From Blastocatellia bacterium (lineage in GTDB: Bacteria > Acidobacteriota > Blastocatellia > HR10 > J050), in the NCBI GenBank assembly GCA_026985075.1, contig JALSQX010000033.1, positions 62,001 through 126,000 on the forward strand: a stretch of DNA of 64,000 bases, in the 5' to 3' direction. The notes beneath the pieces were generated by a model that saw nothing but the letters and a program-made list of their open reading frames with translations, was not told where the DNA came from and did no database searches. How positions within the stretch are numbered: position 1 is the first letter of the stretch; every line of letters begins with the position of its first letter. Below, in pieces: positions 3,109 to 25,672 of this stretch. Made by a program: the position numbers and the translations under genes.

Positions 3109-4495
3109 TCACTTGCGGACAGGCCGCCTTGCCGACACATCGGGCTGCGCCGCGCCCTCTGCTTGCAGAGCGGTACCTGGCGCTCGCCTCAGCAACCAGA
3201 GGCTGGCATCGTAGACCCGGATCGCTTCGGGCACTCCTCGGATCGATTCCGAAACCAGCGTAACCAGGGAAAGAGCGGCGTCCGGATGCTCCTGAGCTGC
3301 GGACTCCAGGGCTCGCACCTCCCGTTCTAAAGTAGCGGCATCCTGAACCTCCGCACAGACCTGGATCAACTCCCGTCCTCCCCCTGGCCACCGGGCGAGA
3401 AAATCCACTTCGAAACCCTTCCGGGTACGGACATAACCGATCTCAGCGCCGTGCCGCAGCAGCTCGATGCACACAACCGTCTCAAGCGCCTTCGATGGTT
3501 GCACGCGGCCGCTTCGATCGAAAATCGGGATGAGCCCCGGATCGACGGGATAGATCTTCCGGGGATTGCTCATGCGCCGCCGTTCGGAATCCGTGACGAG
3601 CCAGACACCGTGAACGAGAAACGTATCTTCCAGGTGGCCGAGGTAAGCGTGGAGCGAATCCTTGGCGATGCGCACGCCCCGGGACTTGAGATCGTTGTAG
3701 AAGCGGTTGATGCTGAACAACCCGGCAGCATGAGCCAACAGATGCCGGACGAGTTGCCGTAGCGCCAGCGGATGCGAAACACCGTGCCGCTCGATCACAT
3801 CCCTGAGGAGCGTCGCGTCCACATAACTGCGCAGCAGTTCAACTCGATCTCGCTCCGAGGCCCCCTGCGCTTCGGAGAATCCACCAACTGTGAGGTACGT
3901 CTCCAGGTCCCTGCGCAGGGCCGAACGCTCGGCCTTGGTCGCTCGCTCCGGATCTCGGATCTCACGCCCGTGATGCCGCAGGAACTCGCGGAAGCTGACA
4001 AGGAAAGACCAGAGCCTCCATGGCGCGCCCGCGCATGCTGGTGGCCACCTCGCGCGAGAACATCCGCGCCGAGGCCCCGGACAGGAAGAGATCGAGGCTT
4101 TCGGTATCGAGAACTCGGCGGGCAAAGCGCTCCCAGCCTTCCACCATCTGGATCTCGTCCAAAAGGAAGAGCGCTCGCCTTCGGTCGCGCCACTCCGGAT
4201 GGAGGCGGTAGTATTCTTCGAGGAGTACAGACAGATCGGCGGCCGTGAGATCGGCCAGCCGCTCATCGTCGAAGTTGAAGTAGAGGATCCCCTCCCGCGG
4301 CGTCCCGGCCGCCACGCGGTCGGCGAGCACCTGCCACAGGAAGGTCGTCTTACCCGTCCGGCGCATGCCAATGACGGCGATCGCCTTGTTTGGAATCGCG
4401 GGCACGTGGATATCGCGCCGGGTGAAAGCGGGAATCGGCGCCGCCTCGGCGTCAAGGATCTTCTGGCGGAGGATTTGCCTGAGCTGTCCGTCCAT
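3109..4495 (-). pseudogene. AAA_14/DUF4143 ATPase, frameshifted
   Basis: An AAA-family ATPase with a C-terminal DUF4143 domain, a family often found in accessory regions and of unclear role. The N-terminal frame runs from ATG 4495 with Walker A GMRRTGKTT (about residue 43) and Walker B ALFLLDEIQMVEGW. It leaves the correct frame near 4005: it should read FP-SFREFLRHHG but becomes VFPCQLPRVPAASRA and stops at 3962. The other frame carries the remainder, SFREFLRHHG through DUF4143 (ALRQLVRHLLAH, YVRTRKGFEVDFLARW), to the stop at 3109. Removing one base in the CCTTGTCAGC stretch restores a protein of about 460 residues. It is either a recent pseudogene or an assembly error. Confidence 0.8.
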
Positions 4496-4658
4496 GGAGG
4501 ATGGAATAACAAAAATCTATCCTTTTTACAAGGACAGATTGATTGAAGGGCTCCTCCGCTCAACGCTCCAACGGTGTGGGGATTCGTTCAAGAGCACATC
4601 GACGCGAACGCTCATCGGAATCGGCGGCCAGTGCCACCAGAACCCGTCATCGACCATG

Positions 4659-5213
4659 TCAACGGTGAGAACTGTCCAAGGCGCTCATGCGACGAACGAT
4701 CTCGTCCCACTTCCCCTGCGCTTTGAGGATGAGTTCGACGGCGTCACGGACGCCGCCGCGACCGCCGGGACGTTTTGTGATCCAGTGAGCCGCTTCTTTG
4801 ACCTCCCGGACGGCATTGGCCACAGCGATGGCCAGTCCCACCCGGCGCATGACGGGCAGATCGGGCAAATCATCGCCGATATAAGCGACCTCATCATCGG
4901 TGAGGTTTTCCCTCTGAAGAACGTCTTCGTAAGCTTGAAGTTTGTCCTCAGCATTTTGATACAGATGATGGGCGTGCATCTCTTTGACGCGCCGGGCCAA
5001 CACCCGCGACTGGCGAGTGGTGATGATGCCGGTGCGCAAGCCCGCCTGAGCGGCGAGCTTCACGCCCTGTCCGTCCTGGGAGAAGAAGAATTTGATGTCC
5101 TCGCCATCGGGAAGCAGAATGATCCGTCCATCGGTGAGGACGCCGTCACAGTCCATCAAGATGAGCCGAATACGCTGCGCGCGCGCGGTGATCTCGTCCA
5201 TGTCCTTCACCAT
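4659..5213 (-). CDS. kdsC: 3-deoxy-D-manno-octulosonate 8-phosphate phosphatase
   Basis: HAD-superfamily phosphatase that dephosphorylates KDO-8-phosphate to KDO for LPS inner-core synthesis in the cytoplasm. The HAD nucleophile motif is DCDGVLTDG (Asp21, Asp23), followed by the TTRQS motif, a conserved Lys region and YIGDDLPDLPVM as motif IV. At 184 residues with no large cap it matches the tetrameric KdsC/YrbI class. It is the last gene of the operon with kdsA and the M1-like gene, 12 nt after the latter's stop, so the two KDO enzymes flank an unexpected partner. Confidence 0.9.
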   Translation of the reverse strand: MVKDMDEITARAQRIRLILMDCDGVLTDGRIILLPDGEDIKFFFSQDGQGVKLAAQAGLRTGIITTRQSRVLARRVKEMHAHHLYQNAEDKLQAYEDVLQRENLTDDEVAYIGDDLPDLPVMRRVGLAIAVANAVREVKEAAHWITKRPGGRGGVRDAVELILKAQGKWDEIVRRMSALDSSHR

Positions 5214-12098: not shown

Positions 12099-12364
12099 AA
12101 GCGACGCAGGGAGCAGAACCTCCCCTGAGATGAGACGGGATAGGACCTTCTGGCCATGGACCGAACCGAAGGTGACCGGCGTGAACCCGATGGTCCCACT
12201 CAGTGGGGCAGGAATTCACAGAGGGACTCCTCCACGGCCGACCCTCACCTGGTATTGACGGGGCATTGAACAATCGTCCATCCGGACCTCTACACAGGTA
12301 GCCCGCACTTGACGCTGATCCGAACGAGCGCTCTCCGTCCACGCCGGGTTGGTGTGGAGCGCCC
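12099..12364. other. Intergenic, nothing recognised
   Basis: Convergent gap between ubiX and the amidohydrolase. No RNA gene, strong hairpin with T-run, or convincing small gene was seen. Confidence 0.4.
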
Positions 12365-14119
12365 TCACCGCTTTTCGTAGACGACCTTCCCGCCGACAAT
12401 GGTGTACAGCACTTCGGTCGTCAGATATTCCCTGGGATCAACGGTGAGCAGATTTTTGGAGAGGATCGTCAGGTCGGCCAGTTTTCCCACTTCGATGGTC
12501 CCCTTCAGGTGCTCTTCAAAGCTCGCATAGGCTGAACCCAAGGTATAGGCTGTGATCGCCTCTTCGATGGTGAGCCGTTCGGCGGGAAACCAGCCTCCGG
12601 GCGGCTGTCCGGTCAGCGTCTGACGCGTGACGGCGGCATAAAGACCGAAGAGCGGATTGATCGGATAGGCTGAGGCCGTCGTTCCCGGCCAATCGGAGCC
12701 GAAGGCGAGAACGGCCCCACTCCGCTGAATGGTCCTGAAGGCGTACGCTCCTCGACTCCGCTCGTGCCCGATGCGCTCTTCCATCCAGCGCATATCGTCG
12801 CTCAGGTGATACGGCTGGACTTCGGCGATCACATTCAATGCGCCCAGCCGGCGAAAATCGGCGGGCGCGATCACCTGCGCGTGAACCAGTCGAAATCGCC
12901 GATCGCGACGGCCATGGCGACGAATGAGCTCTTCCAGATAATCGAGAAGCACATGATTGGCTTCATCGCCGATAGCATGAACGCTCAACTGCAATCCCAC
13001 CCGGTCGGCGTTGAGCATGTAGTTCAAAAACTTGCCCTCGACGAACCGCCCCCGCTCGTCGACCATCAACCGACGCCAGCGGCCGCGATTGGTGGGATCG
13101 TTGGCATACGGCTGGAAGAAGCGCGCCGTGCTCGTGCCCATGATGCCGTCGATATGCCCTTTGACGGCGCCCAATCGAATCCACTCGTCTCCGGAGCCCA
13201 CCTTGATGCCTCTCCCGGCGAGCTCCTTCCACCGTTCCAATCCATACCGGAAATGAACGCGGACGGTGAGCTCCCCTCGCGCGCGGAGTTCGCGGTAGAT
13301 ATCGAGCTGCTCATCATCGGACATGTCGCTGATGCTGGTGACGCCATACTGGCGTATCTCGGCCAGAGCTCGCCGCGTCTGACGCACTCTCCGACGATGA
13401 GAGAGGCGACGAGGGATCTTCGGACGAAACAGCGACATGACGCCTTTCCCTCGGAGAATCCCCGTCAGTCGCCCCCGCTCATCCCTCAAGAATTCGACGT
13501 CTGGCGCCGAGGGATGCTCCGGGTCCAATCCGACTGCTTTCAGGGCGGCTCGATTGGCCGCAAACTCGCTGAAATCGAACTTGTGGATGAACAGCGGATG
13601 ATCTCTGGTGATCTCCTCGACGAGCCGGACGTCGGGAGTGAACGGCTTTCGCTTCTCGCCTCCGGCGCTGCCCGGCGCCCACTGGTCGTAGGCTCCCCAG
13701 CCACCACCGGTGATCCACTCTCCCGGCCCGAGGTCTTTCACCAGGCGTTGAACGCGGGCGACGAATTCCTTCTGTGAGGTCACGGTCATGAGGTTGAATT
13801 CCAGGAACCGACCGGCCGACGCCACATGGACGTGACTGTCATTGAACCCGGGGACGACGAAGGCGCCTTTCACGTCGATGACCCGCGTTCGAGGTCCACG
13901 GTATCTGAGCGCTTCGGCATTCGATCCCACGGCGATGATTTTCTCCCCTCTGATGGCCACGGCTTCGGCCCGAGGGTGCTTCTCATTGACCGTCCAGACG
14001 AATCCGTTGTGGAGAATGAGATCGGCTCGTGGTGCCGACTGAGGCGAATGGGACTCACCGATTGAGACGCCCACCAGTGCCAGAGAACATACCAGGAGTC
14101 GGATGATCGCTCGTTTCAT
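12365..14119 (-). CDS. Secreted amidohydrolase, YtcJ-like
   Basis: A 584-residue metal-dependent amidohydrolase (amidohydrolase_3 type) with a signal peptide (LLVCSLALVGVSIGESHS). ADLILHNGFVWTVNEKHP marks the small beta domain, NDSHVHVA supplies the first two metal-binding His, and VHAQVIAPADF, AEVQPYH and FGSDWPGT provide the later ligands and catalytic Asp. The C-terminus has ADLTILSKNLLTVDP, the usual closing beta domain. Substrates of YtcJ relatives are mostly unknown. Monocistronic, and divergent from the Rieske gene. Confidence 0.88.
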   Translation of the reverse strand: MKRAIIRLLVCSLALVGVSIGESHSPQSAPRADLILHNGFVWTVNEKHPRAEAVAIRGEKIIAVGSNAEALRYRGPRTRVIDVKGAFVVPGFNDSHVHVASAGRFLEFNLMTVTSQKEFVARVQRLVKDLGPGEWITGGGWGAYDQWAPGSAGGEKRKPFTPDVRLVEEITRDHPLFIHKFDFSEFAANRAALKAVGLDPEHPSAPDVEFLRDERGRLTGILRGKGVMSLFRPKIPRRLSHRRRVRQTRRALAEIRQYGVTSISDMSDDEQLDIYRELRARGELTVRVHFRYGLERWKELAGRGIKVGSGDEWIRLGAVKGHIDGIMGTSTARFFQPYANDPTNRGRWRRLMVDERGRFVEGKFLNYMLNADRVGLQLSVHAIGDEANHVLLDYLEELIRRHGRRDRRFRLVHAQVIAPADFRRLGALNVIAEVQPYHLSDDMRWMEERIGHERSRGAYAFRTIQRSGAVLAFGSDWPGTTASAYPINPLFGLYAAVTRQTLTGQPPGGWFPAERLTIEEAITAYTLGSAYASFEEHLKGTIEVGKLADLTILSKNLLTVDPREYLTTEVLYTIVGGKVVYEKR

Positions 14120-14288: not shown

Positions 14289-15368
14289 ATGAGTGAACCG
14301 ACGCCGCAAACCTCTGATGCTCAGATGCTGTTCGGCTTCTGGTATCCTGCGCTCAGGAGCCAGCGGGTTCGAGGGCGAAGATTAGTTCCCACCATGCTAT
14401 TGGGCGTTCCCCTGGTCATCGGTCGGGATGCTGATGGACGCCCATTCGCCTTCAAGGATGCCTGCCCGCACCGCGGCATGCCGTTTTCCCATGGAGCGTT
14501 CGATGGCCAACTCCTGGAATGCTGCTATCACGGATGGCAGTTCGATGTTCGCACCGGTCAATGCCGTCACATTCCGTCTTTGACGAGCGATGCCCGGCTG
14601 AAGCTGGACCGTCTTCGCGCCCTCACCTTCCCTTGTGACGAACAGGATGGGTACATCTGGGTGTACATGCCCGATGCCCATTCCCGCGATGGGGAAATCC
14701 CTCCGGCGCCCCGGCTTCCCGTGTTCAGCCCGCGCTATCGATTGGCTCATCTGTCGGCCGATCTCCCCTGCAACGTGGATCATGGCATCATCGGGCTGAT
14801 GGACCCCGCTCACGGGCCTTTCGTCCACCAGGCGTGGTGGTGGCGGACGCGGCGGAGCATTCATGAGAAAGAAAAAGTATTCGAACCCATTCCCAACGGG
14901 TTCCGGATTCGCGCCCACGCGCCATCGACGAACAGCGCCCCCTACAAGCTCCTCCGAATCTACGGGCATCCGGTGACCACGACGATCGAATTCGTCCTCC
15001 CCAATATGCGGTTCGAGAAAATTCAATGTGGCCCTTACTGGTTCTCCAGTCGGGCGACGGTGACGCCGATCACCGCCGATCGTTGTCGGCTGGATTATTG
15101 TGCGGCGTGGAATATTTTTTATCACCTCCCGTTCATGGCCTGGTTGCTCAAATTGTTTGGCCGCCTCTTCATTGAGCAGGATCGACGGACGATGGAAAAA
15201 CAGGCCTGGGGCCTGAAATATCATCCCCGCATGCTCCTCATCGATGATGCCGACCGTCCGGCCAAGTGGTACTTTCAGTTGAAGAAGGCTTATCTGGAGG
15301 CCAAACGGACGAACCAACCGATGAAACACCCGCTCTCGGGCCCGGTGACGCTCCGCTGGCGGAGCTAG
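14289..15368 (+). CDS. Rieske [2Fe-2S] aromatic-ring oxygenase family protein
   Basis: A 359-residue non-haem iron oxygenase of the PaO/vanillate demethylase-like type. The Rieske centre is CPHRGMPFSHG (Cys59, His61) plus CCYHGWQF (Cys78, His81). The catalytic iron site is in VDHGIIGLMDPAHGPFVHQ, where spaced Asp/His residues fit the two-His-one-carboxylate pattern. VHQAWWWR resembles pheophorbide-oxygenase-like or sterol-type members, but the substrate is unknown. ATG 14289 is preferred because homology begins soon after it. No reductase gene lies nearby. Confidence 0.88.
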   Translation: MSEPTPQTSDAQMLFGFWYPALRSQRVRGRRLVPTMLLGVPLVIGRDADGRPFAFKDACPHRGMPFSHGAFDGQLLECCYHGWQFDVRTGQCRHIPSLTSDARLKLDRLRALTFPCDEQDGYIWVYMPDAHSRDGEIPPAPRLPVFSPRYRLAHLSADLPCNVDHGIIGLMDPAHGPFVHQAWWWRTRRSIHEKEKVFEPIPNGFRIRAHAPSTNSAPYKLLRIYGHPVTTTIEFVLPNMRFEKIQCGPYWFSSRATVTPITADRCRLDYCAAWNIFYHLPFMAWLLKLFGRLFIEQDRRTMEKQAWGLKYHPRMLLIDDADRPAKWYFQLKKAYLEAKRTNQPMKHPLSGPVTLRWRS

Positions 15369-15523
15369 TCACGGCGGTGGGCATGCGGGACGTGCTCGCA
15401 AGAACGCCGGGCAAAACGGACAACCTTCTCATTCCCGAAGCTCACATATGAAAACCGGGGCCTGGCGACTCGCCCCGCCCGCCAGCCGCCCCCCCCGGAT
15501 AATCCAGCGAGGCCAAAAAAAAT

Positions 15524-15553
15524 TTGTTCTCGGCTTGCCAATTGTGCTAAAAT
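15524..15553 (+). promoter_or_regulatory. Possible promoter reading into the repeat island
   Basis: TTGTTC (15524-15529) and TAAAAT (15548-15553) are 18 nt apart in an AT-rich patch just before the repeats. A small inverted repeat ACCCC-TTACA-GGGGT follows at 15586-15600. If active, it would transcribe the 29-nt repeats as a non-coding RNA. Confidence 0.25.
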
Positions 15554-15666
15554 AGAGTCGTTGGTTCTGTCTGCATCACTGATTTACCCCTTACAGGGGT
15601 TGACATTCCGGGGTCACACAGCGAGGCCCCGGACTGTCCAGCGCGAAGGGATTTGTTTCATCGGCC

Positions 15667-15819
15667 GTTACTCGGGGAACATTGGTCCTGGGATCGGGAC
15701 ACTGAAGGGAGGTGGAGCGATGATTATTGAGAGTTGCTCGGGGAACATTGGTCCTGGGATCGGCACTTCGCCAGAGTCGCCGAAGCGAACGTTGCTCGGG
15801 GAACATTGGTCCTGGGATC
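15667..15819. repeat. Three-copy 29-nt direct repeat array, irregularly spaced
   Basis: Copies at 15667-15695, 15733-15761 and 15791-15819. Copies 2 and 3 are identical and copy 1 differs at one base (GTTA versus GTTG at the start). The conserved core begins CTCGGGGAACATTGG. Intervals are 37 and 29 nt and share no sequence except a few bases after copies 1 and 2. No cas genes are present and the repeat has no clear dyad symmetry, so it is not called as CRISPR. Confidence 0.75.
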
Positions 15820-15909
15820 AGGTAGTGCCACAGGAAGTCCGAGTTTCGATGAACGCTCGCCTGCCAGTCAACGCCGCCCTCACTCCACCCATGAAGGCCC
15901 CGGAGCTGG

Positions 15910-16513
15910 CCTCCGGGGATGGTTACTTCCCTCGCTACTCCCGCTCTCAACTGAACCCTCCCCGCCGACCAGCGGCGGGGCTTCCGAGGGAGAGGAAAAG
16001 CGCCGTGAACGAGCCGGCAACTGAACTCTCCCCGCGGTCCAGCCGCGGGGCTTCCTCACTCAGGTCCCAGTGCTCGCCTCCAGGGTCCCTGACGCTCGCC
16101 CACTAGTCACTGACCGTGCCCCAGTCTCCTGTCCCCGGTCCCTTGATGTTCGTTACCCTCGCCTGCTAGTCACTGACTGTGCCCCGGTCTCATGTCCTCG
16201 GTCCTCGGTCACCCGGGGATCGTTACTTCCCTCGCTCTCAACTGAACTCTCCCCGCCGACAAGCCGCGGGGCTTCCCAAAGGTGGGGGAAGGCACCTCCA
16301 ACGAGCCAGCAATTGAACTCTCCCCGCCGACAAGCCGCGGGGCTTCCCAAAGGTGGGGGAAAGCAACCCCAACTAGCCGACAATGTGACCCTCCCCGCCG
16401 ACGAGCGACGGGGCTTCCTCACTCAGGCCTCGGTGCTCGCCTCCGGGGATTGTTACTTCCCTTGTTACTCTCGCTCTCAACTGAACTCTCCCCGCCGACC
16501 AGCGGCGGGGCTT
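15910..16513. repeat. Six GC-hairpin repeats, IS200/IS605-end-like
   Basis: Hairpins at 15960-15980, 16030-16050, 16251-16271, 16322-16342, 16393-16413 and 16490-16510. All have the shape CCCCGC-N-GCGGGG (or a close variant) followed by CTTC. Three (1, 3, 6) are preceded by a shared flank of about 45 nt running from GGGGAT-N-GTTACTTCC to CAACTGAAC. Read on the minus strand, GAAGCCCCGC...GCGGGGAGAGTTCAGTTGA resembles the hairpin ends and guide-RNA scaffolds of IS200/IS605-type elements. No tnpA or tnpB lies in the window. Confidence 0.7.
16103..16204. repeat. Tandem direct repeat, about 39 nt, period 63
   Basis: Copies at about 16103-16141 and 16166-16204 share CTAGTCACTGAC(C/T)GTGCC and continue through GTCTC to CGGTCC with a few substitutions. 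It lies between hairpin copies 2 and 3. Confidence 0.55.
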
Positions 16514-16790
16514 CATCAGAAGGAGGAATGAGCTCCTCACGACGAGCTGATACCGTGACGCTTCCCCATCGCCCAACCCGGGCCTTCCCGAAGATCTGTG
16601 CCCATCCCGCCTTTCGCTGTGCAAATCTGTGGGCCATGCGACCATGAACCGCGAGACGCCACGCCCACCGAGCAGGAAGAGCCGCTCCGCTCAGACCAGA
16701 GCAAAGAGAGTGGGACAAAAATGGTCACAACCCGCTGATGGTGAAGAAATGGTAGTTCGGGGTCCGCCACCGTGGGCGGGTGATTATGAT

Positions 16791-16822
16791 TGGTGCCGGG
16801 AGGCGGGACTCGAACCGGCACG
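16791..16822 (-). other. tRNA 3'-end-like fragment (T-arm, acceptor strand, CCA)
   Basis: On the minus strand the piece reads GCCGGTTCGAGTCCCGC, a T-arm with a standard TTCGAGT loop and one stem mismatch, then an 8-nt acceptor-like strand, A and CCA at 16793-16791. No matching 5' acceptor strand, D-arm or anticodon arm is found within about 150 nt upstream, so it is not a working tRNA. Such orphan 3' ends can be att sites left by integrases, or remnants of a decayed tRNA. Confidence 0.35.
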
Positions 16823-17020
16823 AGGCAACGGCCCCTGGGAGGTTCCGTTCGGGCTCAGCAGCTTCTGGGGGTCACTCGTTTTCACCACCATCGCTCGCAA
16901 AGCCCCATGGGAAGCGGGCTGGGCGGGGAGGACGATTCTATCGCTCATCGCCTTTGGCTGCCGTTCACGCAAAAAAGAAAGAGCGCTCAACTGGCGCCCT
17001 CTGTAATCCGCTGATTTTGT

Positions 17021-17097
17021 TGGTTGCGGGGGCGGGATTTGAACCCGCGACCTTTGGGTTATGAGCCCAACGAGCTTCCAGACTGCTCCACCCCGCG
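17021..17097 (-). tRNA. Initiator tRNA-fMet (CAT)
   Basis: A complete 77-nt cloverleaf with encoded CCA. Acceptor strands are CGCGGGG and CCCCGCA, giving the C1-A72 mismatch specific to bacterial initiator tRNA. The D-arm is GAGC...GCTC, and the anticodon stem-loop is TTGGG-CTCATAA-CCCAA with the three G-C pairs typical of initiators. The T-arm is GCGGG-TTCAAAT-CCCGC. Confidence 0.96.
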
Positions 17098-17506
17098 CCA
17101 ATTTCCCATTTCAGGGAAGAATTATAGGACTGCCTCTATCCACTGTCAAGCTCCCTTTCTCGGTCTCGCGCTCCGGATCAACCAGAAGTCGGGTGACATC
17201 ATGGCCCCGGCGCCAGAGAATCCCGATTCTCCATCATAATGAATGGAACAGTCCCCGGGGCCATCTTCAGGGCTTCCAGAAACACGCCGTGCGTCCGGCG
17301 AACACTTGCGCCAAGGAACCCCGGCGAGGCTCAGAGCATGACGGAGAATCCTGGCCCCAGCACTCATCGAATGAGCGAGAGTGTCACGGCTGCTGATCAC
17401 CGTCAGGCACCGCTCTTTCGCTTCGTTGGACAGAAGACGAACGTTCTGTTTCACACCTTTCCGGTTTATGGTAAAATCCAGATGGAGTTCAACCGGTGAG
17501 GAGATC
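17098..17506. other. Intergenic between tRNA-fMet and the NfeD gene
   Basis: Apart from the NfeD promoter at 17450-17477 nothing is recognised. Open frames crossing it on the minus strand look like chance reading. Confidence 0.4.
17450..17477 (+). promoter_or_regulatory. Promoter of the NfeD-SPFH string
   Basis: TTCACA (17450-17455) and TAAAAT (17472-17477) lie 16 nt apart, 30 nt before the NfeD start, with GGTGAGGAG as ribosome site in between. Confidence 0.45.
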
Positions 17507-23773: not shown

Positions 23774-25672
23774 TTACTTACTCGTCTTGAACTCGGCATC
23801 GATGACATCCTCGCCTGACGAACTCGTCCCTCCTTCAGAGGTCGAACCGGTTCCTCCCGTCGAACCAGAGCTGGCCTGCTGGTAGGCATGAGCGGCCAGG
23901 CTGTGGGCGACCTGCTGGAGGTCGTTGGTGAGCTGGCGGATGCGATCAATCGGAGCCTGCTCTTTGATCGCTTGACGAATATCGTTGATGAGCTGCTCGG
24001 CCCGCGCCTTCTCGTGAACCGGCACTTTGTCGCCCAGATCCTTGAGCGTCTTCTCCACCTGGTAGGCCAGGCTGTCGGCGTTATTCCTGGCCTCCACCTC
24101 CTCGCGGCGCCGACGATCCTCCTCGGCGTGGGCCTCGGCATCCTTGATCATGCGTTCGATCTCCTCTTTGCTGAGAGACGTCGATCCGCTGATGGTGATC
24201 TTCTGCTCCCGGCCCGTCGCCTTGTCGCGCGCCGAAACATTGAGAATGCCGTTGGCGTCGATATCGAAGGTGACTTCAATCTGCGGGATACCCCGCGGCG
24301 CCGGAGCGATCCCCTCCAATCGGAACTGCCCCAGCACGCGATTGTCCCGAGCCATCTCGCGCTCTCCCTGAAGCACCACGATATCGACCGCCGTCTGATT
24401 ATCCTCGGCGGTGGTGAAGATTTCGGTTCGGCGAACGGGGATGGTCGTATTGCGCTCGATGAGCTTGGTCATCACGCCGCCCAGCGTCTCCACGCCCAAC
24501 GAGAGCGGCGTCACGTCTAACAGGAGCACATCCTTGACTTCGCCAGCCAACACGCCAGCCTGAATGGCCGCCCCAATGGCCACCACTTCGTCGGGATTGA
24601 CCGACTGGTTGGGCTCCTTCCCGGTGAGCCGCTTGACCAATTCCTGAACCGCCGGCATGCGCGTGGCGCCGCCGACCAGAATCACCTCGTCGACATCGTC
24701 CGCCGTCAACTTGGCATCGGCCAGAGCCTGCTTGACCGGACCCACGCATCGTTCGACCAGGTCCTGGGTCAACTGCTCGAACTTGGCCCGCGTCAACTTC
24801 ATCTCCAGATGTTTGGGCCCCGTCTGATCGGCGGTGATGAAGGGCAGGCTGATGGTCGTCTCCACCGTCGAAGAGAGCTCGATCTTAGCCTTCTCGGCGG
24901 CTTCTTTCAATCGCTGGAGCGCCTGACGGTCCTTCCTCAGATCGATGCCCTGATCGCGGAGGAATTCCTCGGCAATCCACTGCACGATCCGCTCGTCGAA
25001 ATCATCGCCGCCCAGGTGGGTATCGCCGCTGGTCGCTTTCACTTCGAAAACCCCATCGCCGACTTCCAGGATCGAGACATCAAACGTGCCTCCACCAAGA
25101 TCGAAGACGAGGATGGTCTCGTTCTTCTTCTTGTCCAACCCATAGGCCAGCGAGGCCGCCGTCGGCTCATTGATGATGCGCAGCACGTTGAGACCGGCAA
25201 TCTTGCCCGCATCCTTGGTCGCCTGCCGCTGGGCATCATTGAAGTACGCCGGGACGGTGATCACGGCATCGGTCACCTTCTCGCCCAGATACTTGGAGGC
25301 ATCTTCGACCAGTTTGCGCAAGATCATCGCCGAGATCTCCTCGGGCGCATACTGCTTGCTCTGAATCTCCACTCTGACGGCATCATTGGCTCCGGCGATG
25401 ACCTTGTAGGGCACTTGTTTGATCTCTTCGGTCACCTCGCTGTACTTGCGCCCCATGAATCGCTTGATGGAATAGATGGTGTTCTCCGGGTTGAGAATCG
25501 CCTGTCGTTTGGCCAGTTGGCCGACCAGGCGCTCGCCCGTCTTGGTGAAGGCGACCACAGAAGGAGTCACCCGCCCCCCTTCACTGTTGGGGATCACCGT
25601 CGGCTTCCCGCCTTCCATAACCGCCACCACCGAGTTGGTCGTTCCAAGATCAATCCCTACTGCCTTTGCCAT
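23774..25672 (-). CDS. dnaK: Chaperone DnaK (Hsp70)
   Basis: 632 residues. The ATPase domain opens with [20 protein letters not shown] and contains [14 protein letters not shown] and [14 protein letters not shown]. The linker is [15 protein letters not shown] and the peptide-binding and lid domains follow to a Gly/Ser/Thr-rich tail ending [20 protein letters not shown] precedes the ATG. It is the middle gene of hsp20-dnaK-grpE; no dnaJ is adjacent and no CIRCE-type inverted repeat was found upstream. Confidence 0.97.

Follow-up and report, generated by a model that had tools for sequence, protein, structure and literature searches.

The window, a 64,000-nucleotide stretch of the genome of a Blastocatellia bacterium (G000), contains an array of short GC-rich hairpins. 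We interpret this array, with a probability of roughly three in four, as single-strand hairpin elements of the REP type, clustered in a BIME-like manner and mobilised in trans by a transposase with two fused Y1 domains, encoded on contig C95 of the same genome. Few bacterial repeats are as common as REP elements, yet little is understood of the way in which they spread. The REP transposases known so far belong to class 2 and have a single domain, and IS608 TnpA is a dimer with two trans active sites. If our interpretation is true, the C95 protein is a natural fused TnpA with one composite active site, tied to REP-like arrays in two phyla, which would suggest that loss of the second site is part of the conversion of an IS transposase into a REP mobiliser.

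A hairpin array with covarying stems

We found six GC-rich hairpins, with starts at 15960, 16030, 16251, 16322, 16393 and 16490, at the place and with the stems described in an earlier note on this DNA; together they span 15960-16510. Copies 1 and 6 are identical in form (CCCCGCCG-ACCAG-CGGCGGGG), copy 2 has the form CCCCGCGG-TCCAG-CCGCGGGG, and copies 3-5 are paired at seven of eight stem positions. We refer to these hairpins as type B. A seventh hairpin, of another type (A), opens the array at 15898-15918, and decayed copies are interspersed among the six type B hairpins. Dinucleotide-preserving shuffling of positions 15300-17200 (300 shuffles) yielded a mean of 0.087 hairpins and a maximum of 2, as compared to the 7 observed.

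The array begins on the plus strand with a type A element at 15890-15945 (GAAGG-CCCCGGAG-ctggc-CTCCGGGG-ATGGTTACTTCCCTCGCTAC), which folds as a hairpin with 8/8 pairs at 15898-15918. It is followed on the minus strand by copy 1 of type B (15936-15984; hairpin 15960-15980, 8/8 pairs; 65.6 bits with a type B covariance model) and copy 2, with its compensated stem CCCCGCGG/CCGCGGGG (16006-16054; hairpin 16030-16050; 68.6 bits). A degenerate A2-type remnant on the plus strand (16065-16110), recognised by eye against the A2 consensus, has a decayed stem and has kept the tail TCCCTGAC...CTAGTCAC; a 57-nt repeat pair (16085-16141 and 16148-16204) overlaps it. A truncated type A remnant (CACCCGGGGATCGTTACTTCCCTCGCTC) on the plus strand at 16206-16237 was likewise assigned by eye, against the A consensus, with its register taken from repeat family D2. 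The minus strand then carries copy 3 (16227-16275; hairpin 16251-16271, 7/8 pairs with the mismatch at pair 7; 61.8 bits), copy 4 (16298-16346; hairpin 16322-16342, 7/8 pairs; 62.9 bits) and copy 5 (16369-16417; hairpin 16393-16413, 7/8 Watson-Crick pairs with the last being G-T; 58.0 bits). A decayed type A element on the plus strand (16424-16470, repeat family D2) precedes copy 6 on the minus strand (16466-16514; hairpin 16490-16510, 8/8 pairs; 65.8 bits), and positions 16425-16514 constitute a second copy of the 90-nt A-B unit at 15895-15984, with 91% identity. A weak, degenerate seventh B-like copy on the minus strand at 16539-16587 scored 15.7 bits (E 0.023) with the covariance model. Just upstream of the array, at 15667-15824, are three 34-nt repeats (TTGCTCGGGGAACATTGGTCCTGGGATC...) spaced 58-66 nt apart, whose 20-nt core had no further occurrence in the fetched genome stretches.

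We built the covariance model of type B from 59 genome copies that include the six window copies, such that the scores of 58-69 bits for the latter are partly due to construction. Two stem pairs vary on both sides among the 59 copies; pair 5 is GC in 43, AU in 11 and GU in 4, and pair 7 is GC in 23, CG in 10 and AU in 8. The proportion of paired cells in the structure was 96.2%, and the covariation score was 0.169, as compared to 0.086 for shuffles and 0.008-0.057 for slid controls. Hence, the compensatory stem changes reported in the earlier note are real, extending genome-wide, and the covariation exceeds that of shuffled sequence. The gain in folding of single copies over shuffled versions of themselves was modest (z -0.8 to -3.5), indicating that the evidence lies in covariation and repetition rather than in stability. 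A G-G mismatch at pair 7 occurred in 26 of 170 type B copies (L021-L040), indicating that the stem constraint is not absolute at this pair; the mismatch is reminiscent of the stem bulge needed by E. coli REPs (PMC8266576).

A genus-specific, REP-like hairpin family

The 621-base array had 139 BLAST matches in its own genome. We counted hairpins with the pattern CCCC-N4-5 nt-N4-GGGG, with at least 6 of 8 positions paired, and observed 309 in 21 fetched stretches of G000, including the window. The 297 hairpins with a CTNG-type loop were classified as 170 type B, 50 type A, 46 type A2 and 31 others. The consensus is GAA.G-CCCCGGAG-CT.GC-CTCCGGGG-ATCGTTACTTCCCCGCTAC for type A, CAAG-CCCCGGAG-CT.G.-CTCCGGGG-TCC.TGACTTGCC.GCTAGTCA for type A2, and GGAAG-CCCCGC.G-CT.GT-C.GCGGGG-AGG.GTCAGTTG..AGCT.GT for type B, which in the window lies on the minus strand. 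A2, A and inverted B hairpins alternate at fixed spacings of 69-71, 59-62 and 70-73 nt, in a BIME-like manner, and A and B lie on opposite strands, 59-62 nt apart, in dozens of places, as in the inverted pairs of REPINs and BIMEs. The hairpins are short palindromes with a high, dispersed copy number, as for REPs, and the arrays are spread over many contigs of G000. The type B covariance model had at least 104 matches in G000 and 88 in a congener (G001), none in a same-family genome, and single marginal matches in 2 of the other 55 genomes; copies beyond the window, for which the earlier note had proposed a search, are therefore numerous. The hairpin family is genus-specific and REP-like, being present in its own genome and one congener and essentially absent from other relatives.

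We also compared the array with the orthologous locus of G001, where the left gene (88% identical) and the right tRNA-Met are both in place. Window positions 15673-16993 (~1,320 nt) correspond to ~190 nt in G001, and we observed no hairpin in this orthologous intergenic region. Two species of the genus thus differ in the presence of this array, through either insertion or deletion, and the boundaries are diffuse: the window has ~1.1 kb extra, more than the array alone, and its boundaries are not clean, with no readable target duplication. Most of the comparable arrays of G001 are at places common to G000, suggesting that many copies are old. Elsewhere in the window, an amidohydrolase-like gene (12365-14119; assigned by tblastn to annotated amidohydrolases) has no aligned counterpart in G001, and the G001 matches to window positions 12101 and 14227 are only ~145 nt apart.

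A candidate mobilising protein with two fused Y1 domains

Matches to the Y1_Tnp profile in G000 were found only on C95, at 24100-24408 and 24505-24852. These correspond to two domains of one 286-amino-acid open reading frame, which is a single-copy gene. The earlier note's statement that there is no transposase thus holds for the immediate neighbourhood of the array but not for the genome, where this tandem Y1 gene lies inside an array on C95. Hairpins of types A, A2 and B flank the gene, their mixed order being the same on either side, and the gene's 3' end extends into a degenerate hairpin of type A. The orientation is likewise the same on either side, with A on the minus and B on the plus strand, unlike the inverted arrangement seen for the homologues described below. 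The C95 protein passed the cut-off of the NCBI IS200/IS605 transposase family NF033573 (120.6 bits; cut-off 55). Its score against the NCBIfam RAYT family REP_Tyr_transpos (44.1 bits) was below the cut-off of 80, and its Y motif is YLRHQETHH, without the Y---NP of class 2. The minus-strand reading of type B is GAAG-hairpin-AGNG-TCAG; together with the match of the C95 protein to NF033573, this gives good support to the suggestion that the hairpins are non-autonomous, IS200/IS605-like ends on the minus strand.

The same suggestion had a second branch, in which the hairpins are omega-RNA or guide-like RNAs, and the array could be envisaged as remnant IS200/IS605 ends or omega-RNA scaffolds of a TnpB system that has been lost. 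The minus-strand motif GAAGCCCC-hairpin-GGGGAG-TCA does resemble IS605 right ends, although this is a resemblance only. By contrast, a search of G000 for the TnpB zinc-ribbon family gave no match, whereas the same search was positive in 6 of 14 control genomes; the search for tnpA and tnpB proposed earlier recovered the distant, IS200-type tandem Y1 gene and no TnpB. Moreover, the hairpins occur in hundreds of copies without an attached coding sequence, and the Y1 gene is single-copy. An Rfam search of the window found a tRNA and no other family. Based on the absence of a TnpB family match in G000 and of any Rfam match other than the tRNA, we rejected the TnpB/omega-RNA reading, and we regard a lost TnpB system as highly improbable.

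We did not find the tandem Y1 protein in G001 despite the ~88 B elements of that genome, which is fragmented (480 contigs), consistent with either loss or missing sequence. When the neighbouring ATPase gene was used to look for a syntenic counterpart of the C95 locus in G001, none was found. G001 encodes an ordinary single-domain, class 2-type Y1 protein (YILNNP; L120:4376-5047).

Hairpin arrays accompany homologues of the tandem Y1 protein

We identified full-length relatives of the tandem Y1 protein, with 27-44% identity, in other genomes of the class Blastocatellia; a search by name added homologues from MAGs of Blastocatellia/Acidobacteriota and of Pirellulaceae (Planctomycetota). They are rare, being present in 2 of 297 sampled Acidobacteriota genomes. 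Every full-length homologue has hairpin arrays within ~1 kb. The upstream arrays have the form AATC-hairpin-ATCnTT[AC]...CGCTA, and the downstream arrays, where both sides are present, are inverted; the hairpins share a common plan, with stem sequences that differ between genomes. At most loci, we observed 1.05-7.3 hairpins per kb near the gene, as compared to 0-0.5 elsewhere. A partial, broken match (L111) had no flanking hairpins. Hairpins of the homologue type are also dispersed in the host genomes, with 44 in G017, 151 in G021 and 258 in G040, and 27 copies are present in a congener of G017; none were found in three other f4 relatives, or with reversed-pattern controls. Two of the four Pirellulaceae genomes searched carry 37 and 32 hairpin copies, and all 37 copies in the one genome are at its two gene loci. 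Overall, the association of the gene with hairpins of its own, both next to it and dispersed over the genome, is as expected for a REPtron. In Pirellulaceae M30B19, we observed two related tandem Y1 loci (L104 and L107), each with ~15-20 near-identical hairpins in inverted arrays. G017 has a second tandem Y1 copy that is broken (L075, G017:C3:206000-216000, 4277-5092), with its domains in different frames, between hairpin arrays.

These observations bear on the possibility that the hairpins are passive, having spread by recombination or slippage, or that they serve as terminators, mRNA-stabilising sites or nucleoid-binding sites, with the Y1 gene being incidental. Tandem arrays with periods of 69-73 nt and the many sites common to both species are as expected for old, locally expanding repeats, and an RNA function would give rise to covariation too. 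However, the arrays are dispersed on many contigs, and the conserved unpaired foot and 3' motif suit a protein substrate better than a terminator, there being no T run. Furthermore, in two phyla, each of the divergent homologues is enclosed by hairpins that follow the same plan with other stem sequences and are inverted across the gene, an arrangement that chance would not repeat. We therefore consider passive hairpins to be decidedly unlikely.

A putative composite active site

We aligned 13 tandem Y1 homologues, in all of which PF01797 was found, and compared their active-site residues. In domain 1, the second His of the HUH motif is replaced by Arg, Gln or Lys in all 12 homologues that cover it, and the first His is also lost in 7, while Tyr115, Gln119 and His122-His123 are kept in 13/13. 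In domain 2, the HUH residues His200-x-His202 are kept in 13/13, the Gln four residues after the Tyr is missing in every homologue with a residue there, and six of the 13 have Phe or Trp instead of the Tyr itself, which is still present in the G000 and Pirellulaceae proteins. Consequently, no single Y1 domain combines HUH with the catalytic Tyr-Gln in any homologue; the former is in domain 2 and the latter in domain 1. Relatives with a single domain, from the same class, have both motifs in one chain. In IS608 TnpA, the HUH motif acts together with a helix of the partner subunit that carries the Tyr and Gln, and the +4 Gln is a metal ligand. The pattern of loss suggests that the tandem protein is a single-chain pseudo-dimer with one composite active site.

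The elements could also be mobilised by the tandem Y1 protein with domain 2 acting in cis, or by a dimer of fused chains with two sites. A cis site formed by H200, H202 and Y265 is conceivable in the G000 and Pirellulaceae proteins, since domain 2 of these proteins retains both HUH and Tyr. On the other hand, the replacement of the domain 2 Tyr in six homologues and the absence of the +4 Gln in all argue against this arrangement, and the invariance of the domain 1 Tyr and Gln, in a domain without HUH, is sensible only if they serve another domain. Hence, we view a cis or two-site mechanism as unlikely, and favour the single composite site.

A tree of the separated domains had one clade per domain, with support of 99 and 98, and a broadly concordant order within the clades, for which a single fusion event is the simplest reading. 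We also modelled the structure of the C95 protein using the 13 sequences as input; an earlier model from 6 sequences was poor around Tyr115. The model (pLDDT 81.6, pTM 0.80) contains two Y1-type folds, and its best fold matches are the TnpA proteins of ISDra2 and IS608 (Z ~15). Its lower-confidence region, residues 100-130, is the Tyr115 helix itself, and the model therefore does not establish the trans geometry.

We infer binding, cleavage, the cleavage position and mobility by the C95 protein, and propose the following course. Each element would comprise a guide foot, an 8-bp hairpin, 4-5 nt, a cleavage-like motif (TTAC, TGAC or TCAG) and GCTA; types A and B, lying on opposite strands, form inverted, REPIN-like pairs. 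Upon exposure of a strand, e.g. as lagging-strand template, the C95 protein would bind the hairpin and cleave at the motif 3' of it, using a single composite active site made up of His200/His202 from domain 2 and Tyr115/Gln119 from domain 1. Such a site would correspond to the trans arrangement seen in IS608 TnpA dimers, fixed within a single chain. The protein would then rejoin the cut strand elsewhere, and copies would grow into arrays by local recombination. On balance, we think that this represents a second, independent origin of REP mobilisation, in which an IS200-type TnpA underwent a single duplication and fusion, prior to the divergence or exchange of the Acidobacteriota and Planctomycetota copies. 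The two halves would then have lost complementary parts of the active site, and the resulting single-chain pseudo-dimer, with just one trans composite site, would mobilise hundreds of hairpins lacking a GTAG foot.

Relation to known REP and IS200/IS605 systems

Judging from the sequences, we place the system as an IS200-derived, fused, REP-associated variant that would work like a REP/REPtron. Defining features both of the canonical GTAG REP/class 2 RAYT family and of IS200/IS605 elements were tested and found to be absent, indicating that it is neither. REP, REPIN and BIME systems with class 2 TnpAREP (RAYT) REPtrons (Quentin et al. 2018, PMC6006769) similarly have high-copy hairpins in alternating orientation, several related subtypes per genome, and a low-copy Y1 gene flanked by arrays of cognate hairpins. 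By contrast, class 2 REPs have a GT[AG]G tetranucleotide at the hairpin foot (PMC6006769), whereas the consensus over the 266 classified copies has neither GTAG (GT[AG]G) nor CGTC as a foot tag, the feet being GAAG (B), GAATG or GAAAG (A) and CAAG (A2). GTAG arises only where the distal GCTAC of type A, ~16 nt away, is read on the complementary strand. Class 2 RAYTs have one Y1 domain with Y---NP, as opposed to the two fused Y1 domains and Y---Q--HH of the C95 protein, and we rejected the assignment of this protein as a class 2 RAYT, given its score below the NCBI cut-off and its lack of Y---NP.

The best sequence and fold matches of the C95 protein are IS200/IS605 TnpA proteins (IS608, ISDra2), and the pattern of its residues is reminiscent of TnpA dimers, with their composite trans active site. 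Domain 1 shares the signature Y---Q--HH with TnpAY1 subclass 1.2, which has been reported to lack REP-like structures (PMC6006769). Unlike IS200/IS605 TnpA, the C95 protein is a fused pair with complementary losses, encoded by a single-copy gene, with hundreds of separate hairpins. Likewise, instead of the multi-copy element of IS200/IS605, with tnpA and often tnpB between its ends, G000 has one tandem Y1 gene.

Class 3 TnpAY1 proteins, known from Solibacter usitatus, with about 600 hairpins, and others, are similar in occurring in Acidobacteriota and Planctomycetota, with many atypical hairpins and a Y...Q-type motif (PMC6006769). However, class 3 proteins have a single domain (155-amino-acid profile) with NHVH, Y----Q and a CnGA foot (PMC6006769), whereas the tandem Y1 proteins have two domains with DH[ITV]H and Y---Q, and the hairpin feet in G000 are GAAG, GAATG and CAAG. 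CTGA precedes the B hairpins on the opposite strand; we regard it as the complement of TCAG, and hence not as a class 3 CnGA foot. As the motifs differ, we rejected class 3 for the C95 protein. In the literature searched, coverage of which was incomplete, we found no account of a Y1 (REP) transposase in fused or tandem form. Quentin et al. discarded unexpectedly long proteins as fusions or annotation errors (PMC6006769), and fused Y1 proteins may have been set aside in that survey.
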